DNA of 64,000 nt, taken from the NCBI GenBank assembly GCA_946699065.1, contig CAMPDV010002156.1, forward strand, positions 1 through 64,000, read 5' to 3'. The notes under the pieces are model-generated. The model did no database searches. It had not been told where the DNA came from and saw only the letters and a program-made list of their open reading frames with translations. Positions 1,613-63,588 of this stretch are shown in pieces; position 1 is the first letter of the stretch; the number at the start of each line of letters is the position of its first letter. This DNA is from Loxodes magnus (Eukaryota > Ciliophora > Karyorelictea > Loxodida > Loxodidae). The position numbers and the translations under genes are program-made.

Positions 1613-4600
1613 GATATTCTTTTTCTTACTTTACTTCTTCACTTTTCTAAATACTTATTACTTCTCAAAGCATACTCCTTAAAACTGAAATTCTACCTTC
1701 TCTTATTACTTTACTTCTTCACTTTTCTAAATACTTATTACTTCTCAAAGCATACTCCTTAAAACTGAAACTCTATCTTCTTTTCTTACTTTACTTCTTC
1801 ACTTTTCATTAGGCTAACTTTCATCTACAAGCATATCTTGACTAACCGAATACAGATTCGTAATTGTGACATTACTACTAACATTTTGGATATTCTAACT
1901 TATATTTTAGTGCTTGCTAAGCAAACTTATCATTAGATATTCTTTTTCTTACTTTACTTCTTCACTTTTCTAAATACTTATTACTTCTCAAAGCATACTC
2001 CTTAAAACTGAAATTCTACCTTCTCTTATTACTTTACTTCTTCACTTTTCTAAATACTTATTACTTCTCAAAGCATACTCCTTAAAACTGAAACTCTATC
2101 TTCTTTTCTTACTTTACTTCTTCACTTTTCATTAGGCTAACTTTCATCTACAAGCATATCTTGACTAACCGAATACAGATTCGTAATTGTGACATTACTA
2201 CTAACATTTTGGATATTCTAACTTATATTTTAGTGCTTGCTAAGCAAACTTATCATTAGATATTCTTTTTCTTACTTTACTTCTTCACTTTTCTAAATAC
2301 TTATTACTTCTCAAAGCATAGTACTTAAAACTGAAATTCTATCTTCTTTTCTTACTTTACTTCTTCACTTTTCTAAATACTTATTACTTCTCAAAGCATA
2401 CTCCTTAAAACTGAAATTCTACCTTCTCTTATTACTTTACTTCTTCACTTTTCTAAATACTTATTACTTCTCAAAGCATACTCCTTTAAACCGAAACTCT
2501 ACCTTCTTTTCTTACTTTACTTCTTCACTTTTCATTAGGCTAACTTTCATCTACAAGCATATCTTGACTAACCGAATACAGATTCGTAATTGTGACATTA
2601 CTACTAACATTTTGGATATTCTAACTTATATTTTAGTGCTTGCTAAGCAAACTTATCATTAGATATTCTTTTTCTTACTTTACTTCTTCACTTTTCTAAA
2701 TACTTATTACTTCTCAAAGCATACTCCTTAAAACTGAAATTCTACCTTCTCTTATTACTTTACTTCTTCACTTTTCTAAATACTTATTACTTCTCAAAGC
2801 ATACTCCTTAAAACTGAAACTCTATCTTCTTTTCTTACTTTACTTCTTCACTTTTCATTAGGCTAACTTTCATCTACAAGCATATCTTGACTAACCGAAT
2901 ACAGATTCGTAATTGTGACATTACTACTAACATTTTGGATATTCTAACTTATATTTTAGTGCTTGCTAAGCAAACTTATCATTAGATATTCTTTTTCTTA
3001 CTTTACTTCTTCACTTTTCTAAATACTTATTACTTCTCAAAGCATAGTACTTAAAACTGAAATTCTATCTTCTTTTCTTACTTTACTTCTTCACTTTTCT
3101 AAATACTTATTACTTCTCAAAGCATACTCCTTAAAACTGAAATTCTACCTTCTCTTATTACTTTACTTCTTCACTTTTCTAAATACTTATTACTTCTCAA
3201 AGCATACTCCTTTAAACCGAAACTCTACCTTCTTTTCTTACTTTACTTCTTCACTTTTCATTAGGCTAACTTTCATCTACAAGCATATCTTGACTAACCG
3301 AATACAGATTCGTAATTGTGACATTACTACTAACATTTTGGATATTCTAACTTATATTTTAGTGCTTGCTAAGCAAACTTATCATTAGATATTCTTTTTC
3401 TTACTTTACTTCTTCACTTTTCTAAATACTTATTACTTCTCAAAGCATACTCCTTAAAACTGAAATTCTACCTTCTCTTATTACTTTACTTCTTCACTTT
3501 TCTAAATACTTATTACTTCTCAAAGCATACTCCTTAAAACTGAAACTCTATCTTCTTTTCTTACTTTACTTCTTCACTTTTCATTAGGCTAACTTTCATC
3601 TACAAGCATATCTTGACTAACCGAATACAGATTCGTAATTGTGACATTACTACTAACATTTTGGATATTCTAACTTATATTTTAGTGCTTGCTAAGCAAA
3701 CTTATCATTAGATATTCTTTTTCTTACTTTACTTCTTCACTTTTCTAAATACTTATTACTTCTCAAAGCATAGTACTTAAAACTGAAATTCTATCTTCTT
3801 TTCTTACTTTACTTCTTCACTTTTCTAAATACTTATTACTTCTCAAAGCATACTCCTTAAAACTGAAATTCTACCTTCTCTTATTACTTTACTTCTTCAC
3901 TTTTCTAAATACTTATTACTTCTCAAAGCATACTCCTTTAAACCGAAACTCTACCTTCTTTTCTTACTTTACTTCTTCACTTTTCATTAGGCTAACTTTC
4001 ATCTACAAGCATATCTTGACTAACCGAATACAGATTCGTAATTGTGACATTACTACTAACATTTTGGATATTCTAACTTATATTTTAGTGCTTGCTAAGC
4101 AAACTTATCATTAGATATTCTTTTTCTTACTTTACTTCTTCACTTTTCTAAATACTTATTACTTCTCAAAGCATACTCCTTAAAACTGAAATTCTACCTT
4201 CTCTTATTACTTTACTTCTTCACTTTTCTAAATACTTATTACTTCTCAAAGCATACTCCTTAAAACTGAAACTCTATCTTCTTTTCTTACTTTACTTCTT
4301 CACTTTTCATTAGGCTAACTTTCATCTACAAGCATATCTTGACTAACCGAATACAGATTCGTAATTGTGACATTACTACTAACATTTTGGATATTCTAAC
4401 TTATATTTTAGTGCTTGCTAAGCAAACTTATCATTAGATATTCTTTTTCTTACTTTACTTCTTCACTTTTCTAAATACTTATTACTTCTCAAAGCATACT
4501 CCTTAAAACTGAAATTCTACCTTCTCTTATTACTTTACTTCTTCACTTTTCTAAATACTTATTACTTCTCAAAGCATACTCCTTAAAACTGAAACTCTAT

Positions 4601-18953: not shown

Positions 18954-19140
18954 GATATTCTTTTTCTTACTTTACTTCTTCACTTTTCTAAATACTTATT
19001 ACTTCTCAAAGCATACTCCTTAAAACTGAAATTCTACCTTCTCTTATTACTTTACTTCTTCACTTTTCTAAATACTTATTACTTCTCAAAGCATACTCCT
19101 TTAAACCGAAACTCTACCTTCTTTTCTTACTTTACTTCTT
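18954..19140. repeat. Truncated HOR unit at the left edge of block 1
   Basis: After the module end, one B (18981-19060) and one C2 (19061-19140) follow, and then the sequence switches at 19141 to CACTTTCCTA block monomers with no module. The switch keeps the 80-bp register exactly, so it was made by homologous exchange within the conserved tail or head rather than by insertion. Confidence 0.9.
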
Positions 19141-22100
19141 CACTTTCCTAAATACTTAATACTTCTCAAAGCATACTTTTTATAATAGAAATTCTATCTT
19201 CTTTTCTTACTTTACTTCTTCACTTTCCTAAATACTTAATACTTCTCAAAGCATACTTTTTATAATAGAAATTCTATCTTCTTTTCTTACTTTACTTCTT
19301 CACTTTCCTAAATACTTAATACTTCTCAAAGCATACTTTTTATAATAGAAATTCTATCTTCTTTTCTTACTTTACTTCTTCACTTTCCTAAATACTTAAT
19401 ACTTCTCAAAGCATACGATTTATAACTGAAATTCTATCTTCTTTTCTTACTTTACTTCTTCACTTTCCTAAATACTTAATACTTCTAAAAACATACTACT
19501 TATAATAGAAATTCTATCTTCTTTTCTTACTTTACTTCTTCACTTTCCTAAATACTTAATACTTCTCAAAGCATACTATTTATAACTGAAATTCTATCTT
19601 CTTTTCTTACTTTACTTCTTCACTTTCCTAAATACTTATTACTTCTAAAAGCATACTTTTTATAACTGAAATTCTATCTTCTTTTCTTACTTTACTTCTT
19701 CACTTTCCTAAATACTTAATACTTCTAAAAACATACTACTTATAACTTAAATTCTATCTTCTTTTCTTACTTTACTTCTTCACTTTCCTAAATACTTATT
19801 ACTTCTAAAAACATACTACTTATAACTGAAATTCTATCTTCTTTTCTTACTTTACTTCTTCACTTTCCTAAATACTTAATACTTCTCAAAGCATACGATT
19901 TATAACTGAAATTCTATCTTCTTTTCTTACTTTACTTCTTCACTTTCCTAAATACTTAATACTTCTCAAAGCATACTTTTTATAACTGAAATTCTATCTT
20001 CTTTTCTTACTTTACTTCTTCACTTTCCTAAATACTTAATACTTCTAAAAACATACTACTTAAAACTGAAATTCTATCTTCTTTTCTTACTTTACTTCTT
20101 CACTTTCCTAAATACTTAATACTTCTCAAAGCATACTACTTAAAACTGAAATTCTATCTTCTTTTCTTACTTTACTTCTTCACTTTCCTAAATACTTATT
20201 ACTTCTCAAAGCATACTACATAAAACTGAAATTCTATCTTCTTTTCTTACTTTACTTCTTCACTTTCCTAAATACTTAATACTTCTCAAAGCATACGATT
20301 TATAACTGAAATTCTATCTTCTTTTCTTACTTTACTTCTTCACTTTCCTAAATACTTAATACTTCTCAAAGCATACTACTTAAAACTGAAATTCTATCTT
20401 CTTTTCTTACTTTACTTCTTCACTTTCCTAAATACTTAATACTTCTCAAAGCATACTTTTTATAATAGAAATTCTATCTTCTTTTCTTACTTTACTTCTT
20501 CACTTTCCTAAATACTTAATACTTCTCAAAGCATACTACTTAAAACTGAAATTCTATCTTCTTTTCTTACTTTACTTCTTCACTTTCCTAAATACTTAAT
20601 ACTTCAAAAAGCATACTTTTTATAACTGAAATTCTATCTTCTTTTCTTACTTTACTTCTTCACTTTCCTAAATACTTAATACTTCTCAAAACATACTACT
20701 TATAACTGAAATTCTATCTTCTTTTCTTACTTTACTTCTTCACTTTCCTAAATACTTAATACTTCTCAAAGCATACTACTTAAAACTGAAATTCTATCTT
20801 CTTTTCTTACTTTAATTCTTCACTTTCCTAAATACTTAATACTTCTCAAAGCATACTTTTTATAATAGAAATTCTATCTTCTTTTCTTACTTTAATTCTT
20901 CACTTTCCTAAATACTTAATACTTCTCAAAGCATACTATTTATAATAGAAATTCTATCTTCTTTTCTTACTTTACTTCTTCACTTTCCTAAATACTTAAT
21001 ACTTCTCAAAGCATACTATTTATAATAGAAATTCTATCTTCTTTTCTTACTTTACTTCTTCACTTTCCTAAATACTTAATACTTCTCAAAGCATACTTTT
21101 TATAATAGAAATTCTATCTTCTTTTCTTACTTTACTTCTTCACTTTCCTAAATACTTATTACTTCTCAAAACATACTACTTATAACTGAAATTCTATCTT
21201 CTTTTCTTACTTTACTTCTTCACTTTCCTAAATACTTAATACTTCTAAAAACATACTACTTATAACTGAAATTCTATCTTCTTTTCTTACTTTACTTCTT
21301 CACTTTCCTAAATACTTAATACTTCTCAAAGCATACTTTTTATAACTGAAATTCTATCTTCTTTTCTTACTTTACTTCTTCACTTTCCTAAATACTTAAT
21401 ACTTCTCAAAGCATACTACTTATAACTGAAATTCTATCTTCTTTTCTTACTTTACTTCTTCACTTTCCTAAATACTTAATACTTCTCAAAGCATACTACT
21501 TAAAACTGAAATTCTATCTTCTTTTCTTACTTTAATTCTTCACTTTCCTAAATACTTAATACTTCTCAAAGCATACTTTTTATAATAGAAATTCTATCTT
21601 CTTTTCTTACTTTAATTCTTCACTTTCCTAAATACTTAATACTTCTCAAAGCATACTATTTATAATAGAAATTCTATCTTCTTTTCTTACTTTACTTCTT
21701 CACTTTCCTAAATACTTAATACTTCTCAAAGCATACTATTTATAATAGAAATTCTATCTTCTTTTCTTACTTTACTTCTTCACTTTCCTAAATACTTAAT
21801 ACTTCTCAAAGCATACTTTTTATAATAGAAATTCTATCTTCTTTTCTTACTTTACTTCTTCACTTTCCTAAATACTTATTACTTCTCAAAACATACTACT
21901 TATAACTGAAATTCTATCTTCTTTTCTTACTTTACTTCTTCACTTTCCTAAATACTTAATACTTCTAAAAACATACTACTTATAACTGAAATTCTATCTT
22001 CTTTTCTTACTTTACTTCTTCACTTTCCTAAATACTTAATACTTCTCAAAGCATAGTTTTTATAACTGAAATTCTATCTTCTTTTCTTACTTTACTTCTT

Positions 22101-23060
22101 CACTTTCCTAAATACTTAATACTTCTCAAAGCATACTACTTATAACTGAAATTCTATCTTCTTTTCTTACTTTACTTCTTCACTTTCCTAAATACTTAAT
22201 ACTTCTCAAAGCATACTACTTAAAACTGAAATTCTATCTTCTTTTCTTACTTTAATTCTTCACTTTCCTAAATACTTAATACTTCTCAAAGCATACGATT
22301 TATAACTGAAATTCTATCTTCTTTTCTTACTTTACTTCTTCACTTTCCTAAATACTTAATACTTCTCAAAGCATACTACTTAAAACTGAAATTCTATCTT
22401 CTTTTCTTACTTTACTTCTTCACTTTCCTAAATACTTAATACTTCTCAAAGCATACTTTTTATAATAGAAATTCTATCTTCTTTTCTTACTTTACTTCTT
22501 CACTTTCCTAAATACTTAATACTTCTCAAAGCATACTATTTATAATAGAAATTCTATCTTCTTTTCTTACTTTACTTCTTCACTTTCCTAAATACTTAAT
22601 ACTTCTCAAAGCATACTATTTATAATAGAAATTCTATCTTCTTTTCTTACTTTACTTCTTCACTTTCCTAAATACTTAATACTTCTCAAAGCATACTTTT
22701 TATAATAGAAATTCTATCTTCTTTTCTTACTTTACTTCTTCACTTTCCTAAATACTTAATACTTCTCAAAACATACGATTTATAACTGAAATTCTATCTT
22801 CTTTTCTTACTTTACTTCTTCACTTTCCTAAATACTTAATACTTCTCAAAGCATACTACTTAAAACTGAAATTCTATCTTCTTTTCTTACTTTAATTCTT
22901 CACTTTCCTAAATACTTAATACTTCTCAAAGCATACTATTTATAATAGAAATTCTATCTTCTTTTCTTACTTTACTTCTTCACTTTCCTAAATACTTAAT
23001 ACTTCTAAAAACATACTACTTATAACTGAAATTCTATCTTCTTTTCTTACTTTACTTCTT
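19141..23060. repeat. Block 1: 49 plain 80-bp monomers
   Basis: This block of 3920 bp is exactly 49 x 80, with no indel and no 163-bp module. Its monomers differ from HOR monomers by CACTTTCCTA (not TTTTCTA) and mostly AATACTTAAT (not ACTTATT). They vary at a core of about 25 bp: ACTTTTTATAATAG, ACTATTTATAATAG, ACGATTTATAACTG, ACTACTTATAACTG, ACTACTTAAAACTG and others, some with CTAAAAACAT for CTCAAAGCAT. Five monomers (starting 20741, 20821, 21461, 21541 and 22181) plus 22821 have TTTAATTCTT at their tail. Diversity between neighbours is far higher than in the HOR domains, which marks this as an older or less homogenised part. Confidence 0.95.
20741..22180. repeat. 720-bp nine-monomer duplication in block 1
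   Basis: Nine monomers at 20741-21460 recur in the same order at 21461-22180. The one difference I see is C at 21336 against G at 22056 (GCATACTTTT to GCATAGTTTT). A partial third run follows: the monomer at 22181 repeats the first member, and 22341-22740 repeats members 1 to 5 without the TTTAATTCTT tails. So the block had begun to form its own nine-monomer HOR. Confidence 0.9.
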
Positions 23061-26000
23061 CACTTTTCTAAATACTTATTACTTCTCAAAGCATACTCCT
23101 TAAAACTGAAATTCTACCTTCTCTTATTACTTTACTTCTTCACTTTTCTAAATACTTATTACTTCTCAAAGCATACTCCTTAAAACTGAAACTCTATCTT
23201 CTTTTCTTACTTTACTTCTTCACTTTTCATTAGGCTAACTTTCATCTACAAGCATATCTTGACTAACCGAATACAGATTCGTAATTGTGACATTACTACT
23301 AACATTTTGGATATTCTAACTTATATTTTAGTGCTTGCTAAGCAAACTTATCATTAGATATTCTTTTTCTTACTTTACTTCTTCACTTTTCTAAATACTT
23401 ATTACTTCTCAAAGCATAGTACTTAAAACTGAAATTCTATCTTCTTTTCTTACTTTACTTCTTCACTTTTCTAAATACTTATTACTTCTCAAAGCATACT
23501 CCTTAAAACTGAAATTCTACCTTCTCTTATTACTTTACTTCTTCACTTTTCTAAATACTTATTACTTCTCAAAGCATACTCCTTTAAACCGAAACTCTAC
23601 CTTCTTTTCTTACTTTACTTCTTCACTTTTCATTAGGCTAACTTTCATCTACAAGCATATCTTGACTAACCGAATACAGATTCGTAATTGTGACATTACT
23701 ACTAACATTTTGGATATTCTAACTTATATTTTAGTGCTTGCTAAGCAAACTTATCATTAGATATTCTTTTTCTTACTTTACTTCTTCACTTTTCTAAATA
23801 CTTATTACTTCTCAAAGCATACTCCTTAAAACTGAAATTCTACCTTCTCTTATTACTTTACTTCTTCACTTTTCTAAATACTTATTACTTCTCAAAGCAT
23901 ACTCCTTAAAACTGAAACTCTATCTTCTTTTCTTACTTTACTTCTTCACTTTTCATTAGGCTAACTTTCATCTACAAGCATATCTTGACTAACCGAATAC
24001 AGATTCGTAATTGTGACATTACTACTAACATTTTGGATATTCTAACTTATATTTTAGTGCTTGCTAAGCAAACTTATCATTAGATATTCTTTTTCTTACT
24101 TTACTTCTTCACTTTTCTAAATACTTATTACTTCTCAAAGCATAGTACTTAAAACTGAAATTCTATCTTCTTTTCTTACTTTACTTCTTCACTTTTCTAA
24201 ATACTTATTACTTCTCAAAGCATACTCCTTAAAACTGAAATTCTACCTTCTCTTATTACTTTACTTCTTCACTTTTCTAAATACTTATTACTTCTCAAAG
24301 CATACTCCTTTAAACCGAAACTCTACCTTCTTTTCTTACTTTACTTCTTCACTTTTCATTAGGCTAACTTTCATCTACAAGCATATCTTGACTAACCGAA
24401 TACAGATTCGTAATTGTGACATTACTACTAACATTTTGGATATTCTAACTTATATTTTAGTGCTTGCTAAGCAAACTTATCATTAGATATTCTTTTTCTT
24501 ACTTTACTTCTTCACTTTTCTAAATACTTATTACTTCTCAAAGCATACTCCTTAAAACTGAAATTCTACCTTCTCTTATTACTTTACTTCTTCACTTTTC
24601 TAAATACTTATTACTTCTCAAAGCATACTCCTTAAAACTGAAACTCTATCTTCTTTTCTTACTTTACTTCTTCACTTTTCATTAGGCTAACTTTCATCTA
24701 CAAGCATATCTTGACTAACCGAATACAGATTCGTAATTGTGACATTACTACTAACATTTTGGATATTCTAACTTATATTTTAGTGCTTGCTAAGCAAACT
24801 TATCATTAGATATTCTTTTTCTTACTTTACTTCTTCACTTTTCTAAATACTTATTACTTCTCAAAGCATAGTACTTAAAACTGAAATTCTATCTTCTTTT
24901 CTTACTTTACTTCTTCACTTTTCTAAATACTTATTACTTCTCAAAGCATACTCCTTAAAACTGAAATTCTATCTTCTTTTCTTACTTTACTTCTTCACTT
25001 TTCATTAGGCTAACTTTCATCTACAAGCATATCTTGACTAACCGAATACAGATTCGTAATTGTGACATTACTACTAACATTTTGGATATTCTAACTTATA
25101 TTTTAGTGCTTGCTAAGCAAACTTATCATTAGATATTCTTTTTCTTACTTTACTTCTTCACTTTTCTAAATACTTATTACTTCTCAAAGCATAGTACTTA
25201 AAACTGAAATTCTATCTTCTTTTCTTACTTTACTTCTTCACTTTTCTAAATACTTATTACTTCTCAAAGCATACTCCTTAAAACTGAAATTCTACCTTCT
25301 TTTATTACTTTACTTCTTCACTTTTCTAAATACTTATTACTTCTCAAAGCATACTCCTTTAAACCGAAACTCTACCTTCTTTTCTTACTTTACTTCTTCA
25401 CTTTTCATTAGGCTAACTTTCATCTACAAGCATATCTTGACTAACCGAATACAGATTCGTAATTGTGACATTACTACTAACATTTTGGATATTCTAACTT
25501 ATATTTTAGTGCTTGCTAAGCAAACTTATCATTAGATATTCTTTTTCTTACTTTACTTCTTCACTTTTCTAAATACTTATTACTTCTCAAAGCATACTCC
25601 TTAAAACTGAAATTCTACCTTCTCTTATTACTTTACTTCTTCACTTTTCTAAATACTTATTACTTCTCAAAGCATACTCCTTAAAACTGAAACTCTATCT
25701 TCTTTTCTTACTTTACTTCTTCACTTTTCATTAGGCTAACTTTCATCTACAAGCATATCTTGACTAACCGAATACAGATTCGTAATTGTGACATTACTAC
25801 TAACATTTTGGATATTCTAACTTATATTTTAGTGCTTGCTAAGCAAACTTATCATTAGATATTCTTTTTCTTACTTTACTTCTTCACTTTTCTAAATACT
25901 TATTACTTCTCAAAGCATAGTACTTAAAACTGAAATTCTATCTTCTTTTCTTACTTTACTTCTTCACTTTTCTAAATACTTATTACTTCTCAAAGCATAC

Positions 26001-27336
26001 TCCTTAAAACTGAAATTCTACCTTCTCTTATTACTTTACTTCTTCACTTTTCTAAATACTTATTACTTCTCAAAGCATACTCCTTTAAACCGAAACTCTA
26101 CCTTCTTTTCTTACTTTACTTCTTCACTTTTCATTAGGCTAACTTTCATCTACAAGCATATCTTGACTAACCGAATACAGATTCGTAATTGTGACATTAC
26201 TACTAACATTTTGGATATTCTAACTTATATTTTAGTGCTTGCTAAGCAAACTTATCATTAGATATTCTTTTTCTTACTTTACTTCTTCACTTTTCTAAAT
26301 ACTTATTACTTCTCAAAGCATACTCCTTAAAACTGAAATTCTACCTTCTCTTATTACTTTACTTCTTCACTTTTCTAAATACTTATTACTTCTCAAAGCA
26401 TACTCCTTAAAACTGAAACTCTATCTTCTTTTCTTACTTTACTTCTTCACTTTTCATTAGGCTAACTTTCATCTACAAGCATATCTTGACTAACCGAATA
26501 CAGATTCGTAATTGTGACATTACTACTAACATTTTGGATATTCTAACTTATATTTTAGTGCTTGCTAAGCAAACTTATCATTAGATATTCTTTTTCTTAC
26601 TTTACTTCTTCACTTTTCTAAATACTTATTACTTCTCAAAGCATAGTACTTAAAACTGAAATTCTATCTTCTTTTCTTACTTTACTTCTTCACTTTTCTA
26701 AATACTTATTACTTCTCAAAGCATACTCCTTAAAACTGAAATTCTACCTTCTCTTATTACTTTACTTCTTCACTTTTCTAAATACTTATTACTTCTCAAA
26801 GCATACTCCTTTAAACCGAAACTCTACCTTCTTTTCTTACTTTACTTCTTCACTTTTCATTAGGCTAACTTTCATCTACAAGCATATCTTGACTAACCGA
26901 ATACAGATTCGTAATTGTGACATTACTACTAACATTTTGGATATTCTAACTTATATTTTAGTGCTTGCTAAGCAAACTTATCATTAGATATTCTTTTTCT
27001 TACTTTACTTCTTCACTTTTCTAAATACTTATTACTTCTCAAAGCATACTCCTTAAAACTGAAATTCTACCTTCTCTTATTACTTTACTTCTTCACTTTT
27101 CTAAATACTTATTACTTCTCAAAGCATACTCCTTAAAACTGAAACTCTATCTTCTTTTCTTACTTTACTTCTTCACTTTTCATTAGGCTAACTTTCATCT
27201 ACAAGCATATCTTGACTAACCGAATACAGATTCGTAATTGTGACATTACTACTAACATTTTGGATATTCTAACTTATATTTTAGTGCTTGCTAAGCAAAC
27301 TTATCATTAGATATTCTTTTTCTTACTTTACTTCTT
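23061..27336. repeat. Higher-order repeat domain 2
   Basis: The domain begins with B and C1 monomers joined in register to the last block monomer, then a module, and then from 23357 the units L S L S, a hybrid unit, L S L S L S. Five 403-bp and six 323-bp units sum to 3953 bp, ending at 27309; the module tail then runs to 27336 and meets block 2. The L at 25132 holds the C to T variant at 25301. The order is reproduced in domain 3 from 31304 to 34933. Confidence 0.94.
24809..25131. repeat. 323-bp hybrid unit A-(B/A)-module
   Basis: The first monomer is class A. The second starts as B or C1 (ACTCCTTAAAACTG) but continues as AAATTCTATCTTCTTTTC, the A-type tail, before the module. This mosaic monomer appears only here and at 32756-33078, exactly 7947 bp downstream, and so is a good marker of the large duplication. 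Confidence 0.88.
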
Positions 27337-27576
27337 CACTTTCCTAAATACTTAATACTTCTCAAAGCATACGATTTATAACTGAAATTCTATCTTCTTT
27401 TCTTACTTTACTTCTTCACTTTCCTAAATACTTAATACTTCTAAAAACATACTACTTATAATAGAAATTCTATCTTCTTTTCTTACTTTACTTCTTCACT
27501 TTCCTAAATACTTAATACTTCTCAAAGCATACTATTTATAACTGAAATTCTATCTTCTTTTCTTACTTTACTTCTT

Positions 27577-28367
27577 CACTTTCCTCAATACTTACTTACT
27601 TCTAAAAGCATATTTTTATAACTGAATTCTATCTTCGTTTTCTTACTTTACATTTTCATATTCCTAAATACTTAATACTTCTAAAAACATACTACTTATC
27701 ATTAAATTATATCTTTTTTCTTACTTTACTTCTTCACTTTCCTAAATACTTATTACTTCTCAAAACATACTACTTAAAACTGAAATTCTATCTTCTTTTC
27801 TTACTTTACTTCTTCACTTTCCTAAATACTTAATACTTCTCAAAGCATACGATTTATAACTGAAACTCTATCTTCTTTTCTTACTTTACTTCTTCACTTT
27901 CCTAAATACTTAATACTTCTCAAAGCATATTTTTATAACTGAAATTCTATCTTCTTTTCTTACTTTACTTCTTCATATTCCTAAATACTTAATATTCTAA
28001 AAACATACTACAAACTTAAATTCTATATTCTTTTTCTTACTTTACTTCTTCACTTTTCTAAATACTTAATACTTCTCAAAGCATACTACTTAAAACTGAA
28101 ATTCTATCTTCTTTTCTTACTTTACTTCTTCACTTTCCTAAATACTTATTACTTCTCAAAGCATACTACATAAAACTGAAATTCTATCTTCTTTTCTTAC
28201 TTTACTTCTTCACTTTCCTAAATACTTAATTTCATCTAAAGCATACTTGACTAACTGAATTCAGATTCGTTTTCTTACTTTACTTCTTCATTTCCTAAAT
28301 ACTTAATACTTCTCAAAGCATACTACTTAAAACTGAAATTCTATCTTCTTTTCTTACTTTACTTCTT
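27577..28367. repeat. Decayed island within block 2
   Basis: About ten monomers starting at 27577, 27657, 27735, 27815, 27895, 27974, 28051, 28131, 28211 and 28289 have lengths of 80, 78, 80, 80, 79, 77, 80, 80, 78 and 79. They carry scattered substitutions and small deletions: CCTCAATACTTACTTACT, CTTCGTTTTC, ACATTTTCATATTCC, AATATTCTAAAAACAT and CTACAAACTTAAATTC. The aligned monomers of block 1 are all exactly 80 bp. Several changes resemble the 163-bp module. This is the only stretch in the window with evident decay, so it may preserve older states, or have received conversion from another array. Confidence 0.88.
28211..28288. repeat. Chimeric monomer with the module core
   Basis: The head CACTTTCCTAAATACTTAAT is a block monomer and the tail TTTCTTACTTTACTTCTT is standard. 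Between them, about 40 bases (28231-28270) match the core of module half alpha: TTCATCTA, AAGCATA, CTTGACTAAC, GAAT, CAGATTCGT. Against the module there are two single-base deletions and two substitutions over 42 aligned bases. The swapped piece replaces the monomer core in register, and the unit is 78 bp. The corresponding monomer of block 1 (20261-20340) is ordinary. It is either a transitional form or a conversion product. Confidence 0.9.
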
Positions 28368-31300
28368 CACTTTCCTAAATACTTAATACTTCTCAAAGCA
28401 TACTTTTTATAATAGAAATTCTATCTTCTTTTCTTACTTTACTTCTTCACTTTCCTAAATACTTAATACTTCTCAAAGCATACTACTTAAAACTGAAATT
28501 CTATCTTCTTTTCTTACTTTACTTCTTCACTTTCCTAAATACTTAATACTTCAAAAAGCATACTTTTTATAACTGAAATTCTATCTTCTTTTCTTACTTT
28601 ACTTCTTCACTTTCCTAAATACTTAATACTTCTCAAAACATACTACTTATAACTGAAATTCTATCTTCTTTTCTTACTTTACTTCTTCACTTTCCTAAAT
28701 ACTTAATACTTCTCAAAGCATACTACTTAAAACTGAAATTCTATCTTCTTTTCTTACTTTAATTCTTCACTTTCCTAAATACTTAATACTTCTCAAAGCA
28801 TACTTTTTATAATAGAAATTCTATCTTCTTTTCTTACTTTAATTCTTCACTTTCCTAAATACTTAATACTTCTCAAAGCATACTATTTATAATAGAAATT
28901 CTATCTTCTTTTCTTACTTTACTTCTTCACTTTCCTAAATACTTAATACTTCTCAAAGCATACTATTTATAATAGAAATTCTATCTTCTTTTCTTACTTT
29001 ACTTCTTCACTTTCCTAAATACTTAATACTTCTCAAAGCATACTTTTTATAATAGAAATTCTATCTTCTTTTCTTACTTTACTTCTTCACTTTCCTAAAT
29101 ACTTATTACTTCTCAAAACATACTACTTATAACTGAAATTCTATCTTCTTTTCTTACTTTACTTCTTCACTTTCCTAAATACTTAATACTTCTAAAAACA
29201 TACTACTTATAACTGAAATTCTATCTTCTTTTCTTACTTTACTTCTTCACTTTCCTAAATACTTAATACTTCTCAAAGCATACTTTTTATAACTGAAATT
29301 CTATCTTCTTTTCTTACTTTACTTCTTCACTTTCCTAAATACTTAATACTTCTCAAAGCATACTACTTATAACTGAAATTCTATCTTCTTTTCTTACTTT
29401 ACTTCTTCACTTTCCTAAATACTTAATACTTCTCAAAGCATACTACTTAAAACTGAAATTCTATCTTCTTTTCTTACTTTAATTCTTCACTTTCCTAAAT
29501 ACTTAATACTTCTCAAAGCATACTTTTTATAATAGAAATTCTATCTTCTTTTCTTACTTTAATTCTTCACTTTCCTAAATACTTAATACTTCTCAAAGCA
29601 TACTATTTATAATAGAAATTCTATCTTCTTTTCTTACTTTACTTCTTCACTTTCCTAAATACTTAATACTTCTCAAAGCATACTATTTATAATAGAAATT
29701 CTATCTTCTTTTCTTACTTTACTTCTTCACTTTCCTAAATACTTAATACTTCTCAAAGCATACTTTTTATAATAGAAATTCTATCTTCTTTTCTTACTTT
29801 ACTTCTTCACTTTCCTAAATACTTATTACTTCTCAAAACATACTACTTATAACTGAAATTCTATCTTCTTTTCTTACTTTACTTCTTCACTTTCCTAAAT
29901 ACTTAATACTTCTAAAAACATACTACTTATAACTGAAATTCTATCTTCTTTTCTTACTTTACTTCTTCACTTTCCTAAATACTTAATACTTCTCAAAGCA
30001 TAGTTTTTATAACTGAAATTCTATCTTCTTTTCTTACTTTACTTCTTCACTTTCCTAAATACTTAATACTTCTCAAAGCATACTACTTATAACTGAAATT
30101 CTATCTTCTTTTCTTACTTTACTTCTTCACTTTCCTAAATACTTAATACTTCTCAAAGCATACTACTTAAAACTGAAATTCTATCTTCTTTTCTTACTTT
30201 AATTCTTCACTTTCCTAAATACTTAATACTTCTCAAAGCATACGATTTATAACTGAAATTCTATCTTCTTTTCTTACTTTACTTCTTCACTTTCCTAAAT
30301 ACTTAATACTTCTCAAAGCATACTACTTAAAACTGAAATTCTATCTTCTTTTCTTACTTTACTTCTTCACTTTCCTAAATACTTAATACTTCTCAAAGCA
30401 TACTTTTTATAATAGAAATTCTATCTTCTTTTCTTACTTTACTTCTTCACTTTCCTAAATACTTAATACTTCTCAAAGCATACTATTTATAATAGAAATT
30501 CTATCTTCTTTTCTTACTTTACTTCTTCACTTTCCTAAATACTTAATACTTCTCAAAGCATACTATTTATAATAGAAATTCTATCTTCTTTTCTTACTTT
30601 ACTTCTTCACTTTCCTAAATACTTAATACTTCTCAAAGCATACTTTTTATAATAGAAATTCTATCTTCTTTTCTTACTTTACTTCTTCACTTTCCTAAAT
30701 ACTTAATACTTCTCAAAACATACGATTTATAACTGAAATTCTATCTTCTTTTCTTACTTTACTTCTTCACTTTCCTAAATACTTAATACTTCTCAAAGCA
30801 TACTACTTAAAACTGAAATTCTATCTTCTTTTCTTACTTTAATTCTTCACTTTCCTAAATACTTAATACTTCTCAAAGCATACTATTTATAATAGAAATT
30901 CTATCTTCTTTTCTTACTTTACTTCTTCACTTTCCTAAATACTTAATACTTCTAAAAACATACTACTTATAACTGAAATTCTATCTTCTTTTCTTACTTT
31001 ACTTCTTCACTTTTCTAAATACTTATTACTTCTCAAAGCATACTCCTTAAAACTGAAATTCTACCTTCTCTTATTACTTTACTTCTTCACTTTTCTAAAT
31101 ACTTATTACTTCTCAAAGCATACTCCTTAAAACTGAAACTCTATCTTCTTTTCTTACTTTACTTCTTCACTTTTCATTAGGCTAACTTTCATCTACAAGC
31201 ATATCTTGACTAACCGAATACAGATTCGTAATTGTGACATTACTACTAACATTTTGGATATTCTAACTTATATTTTAGTGCTTGCTAAGCAAACTTATCA

Positions 31301-34300
31301 TTAGATATTCTTTTTCTTACTTTACTTCTTCACTTTTCTAAATACTTATTACTTCTCAAAGCATAGTACTTAAAACTGAAATTCTATCTTCTTTTCTTAC
31401 TTTACTTCTTCACTTTTCTAAATACTTATTACTTCTCAAAGCATACTCCTTAAAACTGAAATTCTACCTTCTCTTATTACTTTACTTCTTCACTTTTCTA
31501 AATACTTATTACTTCTCAAAGCATACTCCTTTAAACCGAAACTCTACCTTCTTTTCTTACTTTACTTCTTCACTTTTCATTAGGCTAACTTTCATCTACA
31601 AGCATATCTTGACTAACCGAATACAGATTCGTAATTGTGACATTACTACTAACATTTTGGATATTCTAACTTATATTTTAGTGCTTGCTAAGCAAACTTA
31701 TCATTAGATATTCTTTTTCTTACTTTACTTCTTCACTTTTCTAAATACTTATTACTTCTCAAAGCATACTCCTTAAAACTGAAATTCTACCTTCTCTTAT
31801 TACTTTACTTCTTCACTTTTCTAAATACTTATTACTTCTCAAAGCATACTCCTTAAAACTGAAACTCTATCTTCTTTTCTTACTTTACTTCTTCACTTTT
31901 CATTAGGCTAACTTTCATCTACAAGCATATCTTGACTAACCGAATACAGATTCGTAATTGTGACATTACTACTAACATTTTGGATATTCTAACTTATATT
32001 TTAGTGCTTGCTAAGCAAACTTATCATTAGATATTCTTTTTCTTACTTTACTTCTTCACTTTTCTAAATACTTATTACTTCTCAAAGCATAGTACTTAAA
32101 ACTGAAATTCTATCTTCTTTTCTTACTTTACTTCTTCACTTTTCTAAATACTTATTACTTCTCAAAGCATACTCCTTAAAACTGAAATTCTACCTTCTCT
32201 TATTACTTTACTTCTTCACTTTTCTAAATACTTATTACTTCTCAAAGCATACTCCTTTAAACCGAAACTCTACCTTCTTTTCTTACTTTACTTCTTCACT
32301 TTTCATTAGGCTAACTTTCATCTACAAGCATATCTTGACTAACCGAATACAGATTCGTAATTGTGACATTACTACTAACATTTTGGATATTCTAACTTAT
32401 ATTTTAGTGCTTGCTAAGCAAACTTATCATTAGATATTCTTTTTCTTACTTTACTTCTTCACTTTTCTAAATACTTATTACTTCTCAAAGCATACTCCTT
32501 AAAACTGAAATTCTACCTTCTCTTATTACTTTACTTCTTCACTTTTCTAAATACTTATTACTTCTCAAAGCATACTCCTTAAAACTGAAACTCTATCTTC
32601 TTTTCTTACTTTACTTCTTCACTTTTCATTAGGCTAACTTTCATCTACAAGCATATCTTGACTAACCGAATACAGATTCGTAATTGTGACATTACTACTA
32701 ACATTTTGGATATTCTAACTTATATTTTAGTGCTTGCTAAGCAAACTTATCATTAGATATTCTTTTTCTTACTTTACTTCTTCACTTTTCTAAATACTTA
32801 TTACTTCTCAAAGCATAGTACTTAAAACTGAAATTCTATCTTCTTTTCTTACTTTACTTCTTCACTTTTCTAAATACTTATTACTTCTCAAAGCATACTC
32901 CTTAAAACTGAAATTCTATCTTCTTTTCTTACTTTACTTCTTCACTTTTCATTAGGCTAACTTTCATCTACAAGCATATCTTGACTAACCGAATACAGAT
33001 TCGTAATTGTGACATTACTACTAACATTTTGGATATTCTAACTTATATTTTAGTGCTTGCTAAGCAAACTTATCATTAGATATTCTTTTTCTTACTTTAC
33101 TTCTTCACTTTTCTAAATACTTATTACTTCTCAAAGCATAGTACTTAAAACTGAAATTCTATCTTCTTTTCTTACTTTACTTCTTCACTTTTCTAAATAC
33201 TTATTACTTCTCAAAGCATACTCCTTAAAACTGAAATTCTACCTTCTCTTATTACTTTACTTCTTCACTTTTCTAAATACTTATTACTTCTCAAAGCATA
33301 CTCCTTTAAACCGAAACTCTACCTTCTTTTCTTACTTTACTTCTTCACTTTTCATTAGGCTAACTTTCATCTACAAGCATATCTTGACTAACCGAATACA
33401 GATTCGTAATTGTGACATTACTACTAACATTTTGGATATTCTAACTTATATTTTAGTGCTTGCTAAGCAAACTTATCATTAGATATTCTTTTTCTTACTT
33501 TACTTCTTCACTTTTCTAAATACTTATTACTTCTCAAAGCATACTCCTTAAAACTGAAATTCTACCTTCTCTTATTACTTTACTTCTTCACTTTTCTAAA
33601 TACTTATTACTTCTCAAAGCATACTCCTTAAAACTGAAACTCTATCTTCTTTTCTTACTTTACTTCTTCACTTTTCATTAGGCTAACTTTCATCTACAAG
33701 CATATCTTGACTAACCGAATACAGATTCGTAATTGTGACATTACTACTAACATTTTGGATATTCTAACTTATATTTTAGTGCTTGCTAAGCAAACTTATC
33801 ATTAGATATTCTTTTTCTTACTTTACTTCTTCACTTTTCTAAATACTTATTACTTCTCAAAGCATAGTACTTAAAACTGAAATTCTATCTTCTTTTCTTA
33901 CTTTACTTCTTCACTTTTCTAAATACTTATTACTTCTCAAAGCATACTCCTTAAAACTGAAATTCTACCTTCTCTTATTACTTTACTTCTTCACTTTTCT
34001 AAATACTTATTACTTCTCAAAGCATACTCCTTTAAACCGAAACTCTACCTTCTTTTCTTACTTTACTTCTTCACTTTTCATTAGGCTAACTTTCATCTAC
34101 AAGCATATCTTGACTAACCGAATACAGATTCGTAATTGTGACATTACTACTAACATTTTGGATATTCTAACTTATATTTTAGTGCTTGCTAAGCAAACTT
34201 ATCATTAGATATTCTTTTTCTTACTTTACTTCTTCACTTTTCTAAATACTTATTACTTCTCAAAGCATACTCCTTAAAACTGAAATTCTACCTTCTCTTA

Positions 34301-36708
34301 TTACTTTACTTCTTCACTTTTCTAAATACTTATTACTTCTCAAAGCATACTCCTTAAAACTGAAACTCTATCTTCTTTTCTTACTTTACTTCTTCACTTT
34401 TCATTAGGCTAACTTTCATCTACAAGCATATCTTGACTAACCGAATACAGATTCGTAATTGTGACATTACTACTAACATTTTGGATATTCTAACTTATAT
34501 TTTAGTGCTTGCTAAGCAAACTTATCATTAGATATTCTTTTTCTTACTTTACTTCTTCACTTTTCTAAATACTTATTACTTCTCAAAGCATAGTACTTAA
34601 AACTGAAATTCTATCTTCTTTTCTTACTTTACTTCTTCACTTTTCTAAATACTTATTACTTCTCAAAGCATACTCCTTAAAACTGAAATTCTACCTTCTC
34701 TTATTACTTTACTTCTTCACTTTTCTAAATACTTATTACTTCTCAAAGCATACTCCTTTAAACCGAAACTCTACCTTCTTTTCTTACTTTACTTCTTCAC
34801 TTTTCATTAGGCTAACTTTCATCTACAAGCATATCTTGACTAACCGAATACAGATTCGTAATTGTGACATTACTACTAACATTTTGGATATTCTAACTTA
34901 TATTTTAGTGCTTGCTAAGCAAACTTATCATTAGATATTCTTTTTCTTACTTTACTTCTTCACTTTTCTAAATACTTATTACTTCTCAAAGCATAGTACT
35001 TAAAACTGAAATTCTATCTTCTTTTCTTACTTTACTTCTTCACTTTTCTAAATACTTATTACTTCTCAAAGCATACTCCTTAAAACTGAAATTCTACCTT
35101 CTCTTATTACTTTACTTCTTCACTTTTCTAAATACTTATTACTTCTCAAAGCATACTCCTTTAAACCGAAACTCTACCTTCTTTTCTTACTTTACTTCTT
35201 CACTTTTCATTAGGCTAACTTTCATCTACAAGCATATCTTGACTAACCGAATACAGATTCGTAATTGTGACATTACTACTAACATTTTGGATATTCTAAC
35301 TTATATTTTAGTGCTTGCTAAGCAAACTTATCATTAGATATTCTTTTTCTTACTTTACTTCTTCACTTTTCTAAATACTTATTACTTCTCAAAGCATACT
35401 CCTTAAAACTGAAATTCTACCTTCTCTTATTACTTTACTTCTTCACTTTTCTAAATACTTATTACTTCTCAAAGCATACTCCTTTAAACCGAAACTCTAC
35501 CTTCTTTTCTTACTTTACTTCTTCACTTTTCATTAGGCTAACTTTCATCTACAAGCATATCTTGACTAACCGAATACAGATTCGTAATTGTGACATTACT
35601 ACTAACATTTTGGATATTCTAACTTATATTTTAGTGCTTGCTAAGCAAACTTATCATTAGATATTCTTTTTCTTACTTTACTTCTTCACTTTTCTAAATA
35701 CTTATTACTTCTCAAAGCATAGTACTTAAAACTGAAATTCTATCTTCTTTTCTTACTTTACTTCTTCACTTTTCTAAATACTTATTACTTCTCAAAGCAT
35801 ACTCCTTAAAACTGAAATTCTACCTTCTCTTATTACTTTACTTCTTCACTTTTCTAAATACTTATTACTTCTCAAAGCATACTCCTTTAAACCGAAACTC
35901 TACCTTCTTTTCTTACTTTACTTCTTCACTTTTCATTAGGCTAACTTTCATCTACAAGCATATCTTGACTAACCGAATACAGATTCGTAATTGTGACATT
36001 ACTACTAACATTTTGGATATTCTAACTTATATTTTAGTGCTTGCTAAGCAAACTTATCATTAGATATTCTTTTTCTTACTTTACTTCTTCACTTTTCTAA
36101 ATACTTATTACTTCTCAAAGCATACTCCTTAAAACTGAAATTCTACCTTCTCTTATTACTTTACTTCTTCACTTTTCTAAATACTTATTACTTCTCAAAG
36201 CATACTCCTTTAAACCGAAACTCTACCTTCTTTTCTTACTTTACTTCTTCACTTTTCATTAGGCTAACTTTCATCTACAAGCATATCTTGACTAACCGAA
36301 TACAGATTCGTAATTGTGACATTACTACTAACATTTTGGATATTCTAACTTATATTTTAGTGCTTGCTAAGCAAACTTATCATTAGATATTCTTTTTCTT
36401 ACTTTACTTCTTCACTTTTCTAAATACTTATTACTTCTCAAAGCATACTCCTTAAAACTGAAATTCTACCTTCTCTTATTACTTTACTTCTTCACTTTTC
36501 TAAATACTTATTACTTCTCAAAGCATACTCCTTTAAACCGAAACTCTACCTTCTTTTCTTACTTTACTTCTTCACTTTTCATTAGGCTAACTTTCATCTA
36601 CAAGCATATCTTGACTAACCGAATACAGATTCGTAATTGTGACATTACTACTAACATTTTGGATATTCTAACTTATATTTTAGTGCTTGCTAAGCAAACT
36701 TATCATTA

Positions 36709-56400: not shown

Positions 56401-58251
56401 GTAATTGTGACATTACTACTAACATTTTGGATATTCTAACTTATATTTTAGTGCTTGCTAAGCAAACTTATCATTAGATATTCTTTTTCTTACTTTACTT
56501 CTTCACTTTTCTAAATACTTATTACTTCTCAAAGCATACTCCTTAAAACTGAAATTCTACCTTCTCTTATTACTTTACTTCTTCACTTTTCTAAATACTT
56601 ATTACTTCTCAAAGCATACTCCTTAAAACTGAAACTCTATCTTCTTTTCTTACTTTACTTCTTCACTTTTCATTAGGCTAACTTTCATCTACAAGCATAT
56701 CTTGACTAACCGAATACAGATTCGTAATTGTGACATTACTACTAACATTTTGGATATTCTAACTTATATTTTAGTGCTTGCTAAGCAAACTTATCATTAG
56801 ATATTCTTTTTCTTACTTTACTTCTTCACTTTTCTAAATACTTATTACTTCTCAAAGCATAGTACTTAAAACTGAAATTCTATCTTCTTTTCTTACTTTA
56901 CTTCTTCACTTTTCTAAATACTTATTACTTCTCAAAGCATACTCCTTAAAACTGAAATTCTACCTTCTCTTATTACTTTACTTCTTCACTTTTCTAAATA
57001 CTTATTACTTCTCAAAGCATACTCCTTTAAACCGAAACTCTACCTTCTTTTCTTACTTTACTTCTTCACTTTTCATTAGGCTAACTTTCATCTACAAGCA
57101 TATCTTGACTAACCGAATACAGATTCGTAATTGTGACATTACTACTAACATTTTGGATATTCTAACTTATATTTTAGTGCTTGCTAAGCAAACTTATCAT
57201 TAGATATTCTTTTTCTTACTTTACTTCTTCACTTTTCTAAATACTTATTACTTCTCAAAGCATACTCCTTAAAACTGAAATTCTACCTTCTCTTATTACT
57301 TTACTTCTTCACTTTTCTAAATACTTATTACTTCTCAAAGCATACTCCTTAAAACTGAAACTCTATCTTCTTTTCTTACTTTACTTCTTCACTTTTCATT
57401 AGGCTAACTTTCATCTACAAGCATATCTTGACTAACCGAATACAGATTCGTAATTGTGACATTACTACTAACATTTTGGATATTCTAACTTATATTTTAG
57501 TGCTTGCTAAGCAAACTTATCATTAGATATTCTTTTTCTTACTTTACTTCTTCACTTTTCTAAATACTTATTACTTCTCAAAGCATAGTACTTAAAACTG
57601 AAATTCTATCTTCTTTTCTTACTTTACTTCTTCACTTTTCTAAATACTTATTACTTCTCAAAGCATACTCCTTAAAACTGAAATTCTACCTTCTCTTATT
57701 ACTTTACTTCTTCACTTTTCTAAATACTTATTACTTCTCAAAGCATACTCCTTTAAACCGAAACTCTACCTTCTTTTCTTACTTTACTTCTTCACTTTTC
57801 ATTAGGCTAACTTTCATCTACAAGCATATCTTGACTAACCGAATACAGATTCGTAATTGTGACATTACTACTAACATTTTGGATATTCTAACTTATATTT
57901 TAGTGCTTGCTAAGCAAACTTATCATTAGATATTCTTTTTCTTACTTTACTTCTTCACTTTTCTAAATACTTATTACTTCTCAAAGCATACTCCTTAAAA
58001 CTGAAATTCTACCTTCTCTTATTACTTTACTTCTTCACTTTTCTAAATACTTATTACTTCTCAAAGCATACTCCTTAAAACTGAAACTCTATCTTCTTTT
58101 CTTACTTTACTTCTTCACTTTTCATTAGGCTAACTTTCATCTACAAGCATATCTTGACTAACCGAATACAGATTCGTAATTGTGACATTACTACTAACAT
58201 TTTGGATATTCTAACTTATATTTTAGTGCTTGCTAAGCAAACTTATCATTA

Positions 58252-61200
58252 GATATTCTTTTTCTTACTTTACTTCTTCACTTTTCTAAATACTTATTAC
58301 TTCTCAAAGCATACTCCTTAAAACTGAAACTCTATCTTCTTTTCTTACTTTACTTCTTCACTTTTCATTAGGCTAACTTTCATCTACAAGCATATCTTGA
58401 CTAACCGAATACAGATTCGTAATTGTGACATTACTACTAACATTTTGGATATTCTAACTTATATTTTAGTGCTTGCTAAGCAAACTTATCATTAGATATT
58501 CTTTTTCTTACTTTACTTCTTCACTTTTCTAAATACTTATTACTTCTCAAAGCATACTCCTTTAAACCGAAACTCTACCTTCTTTTCTTACTTTACTTCT
58601 TCACTTTTCATTAGGCTAACTTTCATCTACAAGCATATCTTGACTAACCGAATACAGATTCGTAATTGTGACATTACTACTAACATTTTGGATATTCTAA
58701 CTTATATTTTAGTGCTTGCTAAGCAAACTTATCATTAGATATTCTTTTTCTTACTTTACTTCTTCACTTTTCTAAATACTTATTACTTCTCAAAGCATAC
58801 TCCTTTAAACCGAAACTCTACCTTCTTTTCTTACTTTACTTCTTCACTTTTCATTAGGCTAACTTTCATCTACAAGCATATCTTGACTAACCGAATACAG
58901 ATTCGTAATTGTGACATTACTACTAACATTTTGGATATTCTAACTTATATTTTAGTGCTTGCTAAGCAAACTTATCATTAGATATTCTTTTTCTTACTTT
59001 ACTTCTTCACTTTTCTAAATACTTATTACTTCTCAAAGCATACTCCTTAAAACTGAAATTCTACCTTCTCTTATTACTTTACTTCTTCACTTTTCTAAAT
59101 ACTTATTACTTCTCAAAGCATACTCCTTAAAACTGAAACTCTATCTTCTTTTCTTACTTTACTTCTTCACTTTTCATTAGGCTAACTTTCATCTACAAGC
59201 ATATCTTGACTAACCGAATACAGATTCGTAATTGTGACATTACTACTAACATTTTGGATATTCTAACTTATATTTTAGTGCTTGCTAAGCAAACTTATCA
59301 TTAGATATTCTTTTTCTTACTTTACTTCTTCACTTTTCTAAATACTTATTACTTCTCAAAGCATACTCCTTAAAACTGAAACTCTATCTTCTTTTCTTAC
59401 TTTACTTCTTCACTTTTCATTAGGCTAACTTTCATCTACAAGCATATCTTGACTAACCGAATACAGATTCGTAATTGCGACATTACTACTAACATTTTGG
59501 ATATTCTAACTTATATTTTAGTGCTTGCTAAGCAAACTTATCATTAGATATTCTTTTTCTTACTTTACTTCTTCACTTTTCTAAATACTTATTACTTCTC
59601 AAAGCATACTCCTTTAAACCGAAACTCTACCTTCTTTTCTTACTTTACTTCTTCACTTTTCATTAGGCTAACTTTCATCTACAAGCATATCTTGACTAAC
59701 CGAATACAGATTCGTAATTGTGACATTACTACTAACATTTTGGATATTCTAACTTATATTTTAGTGCTTGCTAAGCAAACTTATCATTAGATATTCTTTT
59801 TCTTACTTTACTTCTTCACTTTTCTAAATACTTATTACTTCTCAAAGCATACTCCTTAAAACTGAAACTCTATCTTCTTTTCTTACTTTACTTCTTCACT
59901 TTTCATTAGGCTAACTTTCATCTACAAGCATATCTTGACTAACCGAATACAGATTCGTAATTGTGACATTACTACTAACATTTTGGATATTCTAACTTAT
60001 ATTTTAGTGCTTGCTAAGCAAACTTATCATTAGATATTCTTTTTCTTACTTTACTTCTTCACTTTTCTAAATACTTATTACTTCTCAAAGCATACTCCTT
60101 TAAACCGAAACTCTACCTTCTTTTCTTACTTTACTTCTTCACTTTTCATTAGGCTAACTTTCATCTACAAGCATATCTTGACTAACCGAATACAGATTCG
60201 TAATTGTGACATTACTACTAACATTTTGGATATTCTAACTTATATTTTAGTGCTTGCTAAGCAAACTTATCATTAGATATTCTTTTTCTTACTTTACTTC
60301 TTCACTTTTCTAAATACTTATTACTTCTCAAAGCATACTCCTTTAAACCGAAACTCTACCTTCTTTTCTTACTTTACTTCTTCACTTTTCATTAGGCTAA
60401 CTTTCATCTACAAGCATATCTTGACTAACCGAATACAGATTCGTAATTGTGACATTACTACTAACATTTTGGATATTCTAACTTATATTTTAGTGCTTGC
60501 TAAGCAAACTTATCATTAGATATTCTTTTTCTTACTTTACTTCTTCACTTTTCTAAATACTTATTACTTCTCAAAGCATACTCCTTAAAACTGAAATTCT
60601 ACCTTCTCTTATTACTTTACTTCTTCACTTTTCTAAATACTTATTACTTCTCAAAGCATACTCCTTAAAACTGAAACTCTATCTTCTTTTCTTACTTTAC
60701 TTCTTCACTTTTCATTAGGCTAACTTTCATCTACAAGCATATCTTGACTAACCGAATACAGATTCGTAATTGTGACATTACTACTAACATTTTGGATATT
60801 CTAACTTATATTTTAGTGCTTGCTAAGCAAACTTATCATTAGATATTCTTTTTCTTACTTTACTTCTTCACTTTTCTAAATACTTATTACTTCTCAAAGC
60901 ATACTCCTTAAAACTGAAACTCTATCTTCTTTTCTTACTTTACTTCTTCACTTTTCATTAGGCTAACTTTCATCTACAAGCATATCTTGACTAACCGAAT
61001 ACAGATTCGTAATTGCGACATTACTACTAACATTTTGGATATTCTAACTTATATTTTAGTGCTTGCTAAGCAAACTTATCATTAGATATTCTTTTTCTTA
61101 CTTTACTTCTTCACTTTTCTAAATACTTATTACTTCTCAAAGCATACTCCTTTAAACCGAAACTCTACCTTCTTTTCTTACTTTACTTCTTCACTTTTCA

Positions 61201-61327
61201 TTAGGCTAACTTTCATCTACAAGCATATCTTGACTAACCGAATACAGATTCGTAATTGTGACATTACTACTAACATTTTGGATATTCTAACTTATATTTT
61301 AGTGCTTGCTAAGCAAACTTATCATTA
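58252..61327. repeat. 1538-bp duplication marked by a point variant
   Basis: The string a b b S a b occupies 58252-59789 and 59790-61327. The a unit in fifth position of each copy has T to C in the module (AATTGCGACA instead of AATTGTGACA) at 59478 and 61016, which are exactly 1538 bp apart. No other module I read has this change. The variant therefore arose before the duplication. Confidence 0.92.
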
Positions 61328-61570
61328 GATATTCTTTTTCTTACTTTACTTCTTCACTTTTCTAAATACTTATTACTTCTCAAAGCATACTCCTTTAAAC
61401 CGAAACTCTACCTTCTTTTCTTACTTTACTTCTTCACTTTTCATTAGGCTAACTTTCATCTACAAGCATATCTTGACTAACCGAATACAGATTCGTAATT
61501 GTGACATTACTACTAACATTTTGGATATTCTAACTTATATTTTAGTGCTTGCTAAGCAAACTTATCATTA
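58252..61570. repeat. Cluster of minimal 243-bp units
   Basis: Eleven units hold a single C monomer plus the module: C1 type (a) at 58252, 59304, 59790 and 60842; C2 type (b) at 58495, 58738, 59547, 60033, 60276, 61085 and 61328. S units lie between them at 58981 and 60519. Because the module is denser here (243-bp spacing), this is the region of the window with the most modules per kilobase. The only other 243-bp unit is at 63346-63588. Confidence 0.92.
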
Positions 61571-63345: not shown

Positions 63346-63588
63346 GATATTCTTTTTCTTACTTTACTTCTTCACTTTTCTAAATACTTATTACTTCTCA
63401 AAGCATACTCCTTTAAACCGAAACTCTACCTTCTTTTCTTACTTTACTTCTTCACTTTTCATTAGGCTAACTTTCATCTACAAGCATATCTTGACTAACC
63501 GAATACAGATTCGTAATTGTGACATTACTACTAACATTTTGGATATTCTAACTTATATTTTAGTGCTTGCTAAGCAAACTTATCATTA
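63346..63588. repeat. Isolated 243-bp C2-module unit
   Basis: A single minimal unit between two S units, 1.8 kb beyond the cluster at 58252-61570. It may mark another duplication of the same type beyond the window edge, or an independent loss of the B monomer from an Sb unit. Confidence 0.85.

Follow-up and report, generated by a model that had tools for sequence, protein, structure and literature searches.

The 78 bp hybrid unit u41 (positions 28196–28273), a satellite monomer with a module-like core, lies in a disturbed patch of ten units at 27562–28352. The patch consists of three ghost modules with two monomers between successive ghosts, and is an in-register mixture of two known neighbours, a block of monomers and the adjoining module array. 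It has a two-parent make-up, a single phase, three footprints and a fine texture. Judged on its sequence, the patch is best explained as a consensus artefact of assembly, and on balance this is probably what it represents.

Satellite DNA of the window

The window analyzed is the first 64,000 bases of the 72,693-base contig C2156 of assembly GCA_946699065.1. All coordinates are forward-strand positions in the window unless another contig is named. The whole window is satellite DNA. The unit map has 633 complete units, i.e., 468 monomers of 80 bp, 160 modules of 163 bp (reference copy at 3963–4125) and five units of other lengths. The modules are identical to one another in 157 of the 160 copies. 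Successive modules (159 intervals) are separated by two monomers in 83 cases, three in 57, one in 12 and four in 5, and the dominant module spacings give repeats of 323 and 403 bp. A search with the common-head pattern gave no matches in the prokaryote collections or in the viral collections. None of five satellite strings was found in the text of papers, and no satellite fitting these unit lengths is present among the literature matches listed.

The array is interrupted by two module-free monomer blocks, which are located by the unit map. Block 1 is at 18966–23205 and has ordinary units at the places equivalent to the patch (19606–20405). Block 2 is at 27322–31152 and consists of block-type monomers followed by two array monomers at its right end. 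The last true module to the left of block 2 is at 27159–27321. Within the blocks, nine successive monomer types form a 720-bp stretch that recurs in tandem almost without change, with a difference in one type.

Blocks 1 and 2 are parts of one tandem duplication of about 7.9 kb. On the basis of sequence identity, the left copy is at 19362–27048 and the right copy at about 27318–34995. The copies are identical over 19362–19605, the 244 bases to the left of the patch (offset 7956). To the right of the patch (20406–27048, offset 7947) one of 6,643 bases differs, at position 25301. This base change is in the unit at 25224–25303 and is the sole copy difference found to the right of the patch.

The hybrid unit

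The sequence-only reading described a monomer with a block-type head, a core similar to that of the alpha half of the module, and an ordinary tail, and such a unit is present. Cut at the common head it is at 28196–28273; positions 28211–28288 represent the identical unit with a different cut. In ghost module 3 it takes the alpha position. Aligned locally with the alpha core, it has 39 identities in 43 columns (the first count was 38 of 42), with two mismatches and two one-base gaps. The module-like core is at 28230–28270 and includes short pieces that match block monomers and not the module. The alignment score of the hybrid against the alpha core is 66 and 1,000 dinucleotide shuffles of its sequence reach 30 at most, which rules out a chance resemblance. 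The 40 other short unit types score at most 40 (u34, itself a patch unit), and at most 30 if patch units are excluded.

With up to three mismatches allowed, the 40-base hybrid core has a single occurrence in the window. A search of the assembly gave this core as the only 100% match among the 40 scored of 665 candidates, and the remaining matches shown were 86–90%, partial or full length. The block 1 counterpart at 20246–20325 (unit map and block comparison) is ordinary, as had been reported, and is of a type with four copies in the window.

The hybrid core is in the monomer register and is a mixture of module and monomer, in agreement with the earlier description. The further proposal, an isolated fossil from the transition between monomer and module, is not supported: the hybrid is one of three module-like footprints with a spacing like that of the modern 323-bp repeat. 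The sequence under the three footprints is otherwise the same as in block 1. A recent conversion had been expected to place the hybrid within the modern module clade, with a sharp breakpoint at each side. The hybrid does pair with alpha (88/81, based on few columns), but the breakpoints are not clean. A clean conversion with two breakpoints is ruled out by the stretches of block-monomer sequence within the hybrid core. A hybrid monomer made by a single switch would keep the monomer length; the hybrid has several switches and is 78 bp instead of 80. The tree of 43 short units plus module halves (80 columns) has 26 of 40 inner branches open, and patch or module rows do not cluster in this tree except for the hybrid-alpha pairing. 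The two substitutions of the hybrid relative to the window module are each found in module types of other contigs, one in C4380 and C2031 and the other in C2162 and C7662.

Phase and texture of the patch

Block comparison and the unit map show that the patch is 791 bp in length, compared with 800 bp in block 1. Block 2 differs from block 1 in 41 pairwise columns, from 27586 to 28290, and the flanks are identical. Nine of the ten units in the patch are unique, compared with six of 623 elsewhere in the window, and four of these six are the block 1 counterparts of patch units. Of the 633 units, the five with lengths other than 80 or 163 bp are all located here.

The patch is in a single phase with the array. 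With an array that starts with a module as the donor (two donors), 36 of the 57 columns in which the two blocks differ carry the array letter. With three donors whose start is u4, and which come into phase via a gap, 32 columns match the array; the other 13 of the 18 donors have 2–5. The hybrid alone could set the phase, and it was therefore left out, together with u42, in a repeat of this test. All 11 module-starting donors then match 11–15 of 34–35 columns, and the other 30 donors match 2–7. Patch-specific 8-mers are present in the 323-bp unit in 24 of 165 cases, all within a phase span of 17 bases; for 7-mers, 30 of 35 are within the phase span. A mosaic model with fixed alignment was rejected, as it separated the donors poorly (best cost 32, worst 41, single block parent 41).

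Given the single array phase, the units pair as (u34 u35) u36 u37 (u38 u39) u40 u21 (u41 u42). Ghost module 1 (u34 and u35, 158 bp, positions 27562–27719) is the weakest of the three, with 8 of 200 shuffled modules as good. Ghost module 2 (u38 and u39, 156 bp, 27880–28035) and ghost module 3 (the hybrid u41 and u42, 157 bp, 28196–28352) were each matched by none of 200 shuffled modules, and by none of 30 at a higher switch cost. At 156–158 bp, each ghost falls short of both parental lengths (160 and 163 bp). A zero-edit mosaic of block 1 and the module has 19, 9 and 10 switches for ghosts 1, 2 and 3, respectively. A long-switch mosaic model (switch cost 1) recovers ghosts 2 and 3 and gives no gain for ghost 1 or for the in-between monomer pairs. 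Ghost 1 begins three monomers past the last true module (27159), where the next module would start. Agreement in phase with the left array is by itself of little weight, as modules are usually two or three monomers apart.

The monomers between the ghosts have four differences from block 1, and all four are toward the array. Columns that match neither parent (17) and columns that go against both parents (5) are confined to the ghosts, where the parents align poorly. Among 45 module types compared, five have a slightly better fit to the three ghosts than the type of the window itself (19.2–19.34 compared with 19.84). Ghost 2 fits the window's module type best of the 45 and ghost 3 does not; no single donor type could be named from this comparison.

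Modules and monomers in other contigs

The sequence-only reading also proposed that the module can be read as two old monomers. The window's module alone does not bear this out, with 21 and 58 of 200 shuffles as good as its two halves in likeness to monomers, but two of six common module types are monomer-like in both halves. These two types, from C2162/C7662, have 1 and 2, and 4 and 0, of 200 shuffles as good. A module type from C5128 has 0 (alpha) and 12 (beta) of 200, and another from C2162 has 3 and 16. In the hybrid module type of C4380, alpha is monomer-like by make-up and beta has 100 of 200 shuffles as good. There is moderate support for reading the module as two old monomers, which is independent of the hybrid, and a shared register of monomer and module is likely.

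The array in C4380 consists of nearly all modules, 105 copies with a monomer-type first part and 77 with an ordinary alpha. The recombinant is of monomer type up to the shared AAGCATA and then module, with a single switch, and its first copies are 323 bp apart. It is a clean, amplified monomer-module recombinant and displays how a real recombinant looks. Human alpha satellite hybrid monomers are described in PMC9549924 as parts of two units of a higher-order repeat that are joined with the monomer length kept; the C4380 recombinant, with its 105 copies, is a clean case of this kind. Unlike those alpha satellite hybrids, where part of one monomer is fused to part of another, the patch is unique, and its alternating pieces are mostly between one base and a dozen bases long.

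C2034 has an 80-kb array of nearly all monomers. Here 16 monomer-size units have at least two module-specific 6-mers, mostly toward the right end where unique units rise (32 in the first 40 kb and 106 in the rest). At positions 74001–80284 of C2034, inspection by eye reveals module-like monomer pairs about 400 bp apart, and there are two modules with monomer-like bits. This pattern resembles the decay of an array toward its edge more than a consensus error confined to one place; it may represent the same mixing as in the patch, or a true edge of decay.

Possible origins of the patch

A consensus artefact would result if two sequences were averaged into one at 27562–28352. One would be the block as present in block 1, and the other the adjoining module array. 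The array repeat of one module plus two monomers (323 bp) is close to the length of four monomers (320 bp), and the two sequences would line up. At disagreements the consensus would take the base of one parent, that of the other, or neither. The outcome would be three faint modules at the array spacing, with the hybrid the most complete. The mixing would have taken place in assembly and not in the cell. In the patch the parents alternate over very short distances, bases foreign to both are present where the alignment is unsure, and there is a net loss of length. In PMC7545148, long-read assemblies with collapsed alleles or repeats are described as giving a mosaic consensus, in which pieces of two real sequences alternate and the result matches neither. 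The patch is similar in that simulated mixed reads give a patch-like texture; unlike that case, the parents would not be alleles but a block and its adjoining array, which are about two thirds alike over the module.

Two origins were compared by simulation, with 240 runs each. In one, noisy reads of block and array were mixed and a consensus was taken, and the 96 runs with 15–90 array-like columns were kept; in the other, a heteroduplex was repaired in patches of about 30 nt, and 188 runs were kept. The simulations are a simple pile-up with chosen error rates and mixing shares, and a real assembler, read type and coverage may differ. In the consensus simulation all eight texture measures of the patch are within the 5–95% range, where the number of array-like columns (34 observed) is counted among the eight and was also used for run selection. 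Simulated repair missed seven of the eight. The patch length of 791 bp is within the consensus range of 768.5–794, and patch repair gave 799–806. Columns that match neither parent number 16 (consensus 4–22, repair 0–2), and those against agreeing parents number 7 (0–15.25 and 0–1). The share of discordant neighbours is 0.11 (consensus 0.07–0.20, repair 0.02–0.07). There are 13 array-like runs (10–25 and 3–10), seven of them of a single site (4–13 and 0–3), and the longest run is 7 sites (3–20.5 and 11–31). Simpler earlier simulations agree on the shortening and are less clear otherwise; in the earlier consensus simulation the observed 791 bp is at the upper 95% point of kept runs (median 780).

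That the duplication copies to the right of the patch otherwise differ at only one of 6,643 bases counts for an artefact. The assembly has 7,843 contigs with a total of 705.7 Mb. Sizes sampled from 20 of the 7,843 contigs (first and largest 2.9 Mb, thousandth 148 kb, last 12 kb) are those of a fragmented assembly, which fits noisy reads but does not prove them. Counting against an artefact, the window is otherwise very clean, and highly accurate reads would make such mixing hard to explain. The substitutions of the hybrid are found in real module variants elsewhere, and five of 45 module types fit the ghosts slightly better than the window's. Seven of 13 patch-only strings were never produced in 184 kept consensus runs; the consensus model gave six of the 13 at 2–15%, and a column-mosaic model was about as good or as bad. 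These strings were set aside as a discriminator, since each model gives some and misses others. If the patch is an artefact, it calls for caution with 'intermediate' satellite units in assemblies: two repeats in register, merged into a consensus, would produce convincing missing links, with phase and net shortening as the telltale properties.

A possible but less probable origin is real gene conversion on a fine scale, which would have accompanied the unequal exchange behind the 7.9-kb duplication. Array and block DNA would have paired in register over about 700 bp, with mismatches repaired in small patches in either direction. This would give the two-parent make-up and the single phase, and block 2, whose left junction is at 27322, shows its first difference 264 bp further in (27586). 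The patch span of 705 bp is close to the mean heteroduplex tracts of 710 and 773 bp given for Drosophila in PMC4154643, where short-patch repair yields patchy tracts; conversion and restoration alternate within about 700 bp, as in the patch. The C4380 sequence shows that real in-register recombinants of monomer and module are present. However, nearby markers are nearly always co-repaired in these Drosophila data (sites less than 21 bp apart agree in 40 of 42 pairs, PMC4154643), whereas in the patch 189–193 of 215–219 such pairs agree (four alignments) and there are many one-base switches, new bases and a loss of length. Eight of 14 array-like runs are one base in length (alignment A1), and column-wise mosaics are 791 bp or shorter in 0–11% of runs. 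Short-patch repair would be expected to repair near sites together and to leave a length between those of the parents, and the patch has neither property. Nor is it a continuous tract with few breakpoints, as there are 12–15 array-like runs (four alignments) and 38 switches over the three ghosts.

It is unlikely that the patch is real DNA with three half-made or half-erased modules in one copy of a fresh duplication, similar to the zone at the edge of the C2034 array. If this were true, a module would be forming from, or dissolving into, monomer pairs by tiny in-register exchanges. Such exchange, on a scale of a few bases, would be a finer process than known conversion.

The fossil explanation was the one favoured at first; extended to three pairs, it appears quite improbable. 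According to it the patch keeps intermediates from a time when the module was a monomer pair in a four-monomer repeat, and ordinary monomers later overwrote block 1. The three pairs are at four-unit spacing and have bases of neither parent, the module-like monomers of C2034 are about 400 bp apart (by eye at 79172, 79573 and about 79970), and some module types in other contigs are monomer-like in both halves, all of which are consistent with a fossil. The three alpha ghosts, however, have differing subsets of module sites and display no common intermediate state. Patch units other than the hybrid group with their block 1 counterpart types, or are in the same poorly resolved group, and none of the four changes between the ghosts is private. 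The best fit of ghost 2 to the window's own module type, which ghost 3 does not share, is a further hint against a fossil. An overwritten block 1 would also require a donor carrying the unit variants that are unique to this block, and block-type monomers were not found in the six others of the seven contigs or contig parts examined. Conversion from a further block copy at an unseen place in the genome, with such units already present, is very improbable: the satellite was sampled in seven contigs or contig parts only, which leaves room for such a copy, but the question shifts to the donor, and the other six contigs examined have no block-type monomer.

Additional features of the array

Positions 58101–61742 and 63195–63437 have one monomer after each module, which produces repeats of 243 bp. 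The modules at 59396 and 60934 have an identical base change and are 1,538 bp apart. A strong strand bias is present across 1–64000, with a GC skew of -0.51 to -0.82 and an AT skew of about -0.21 (2-kb steps).
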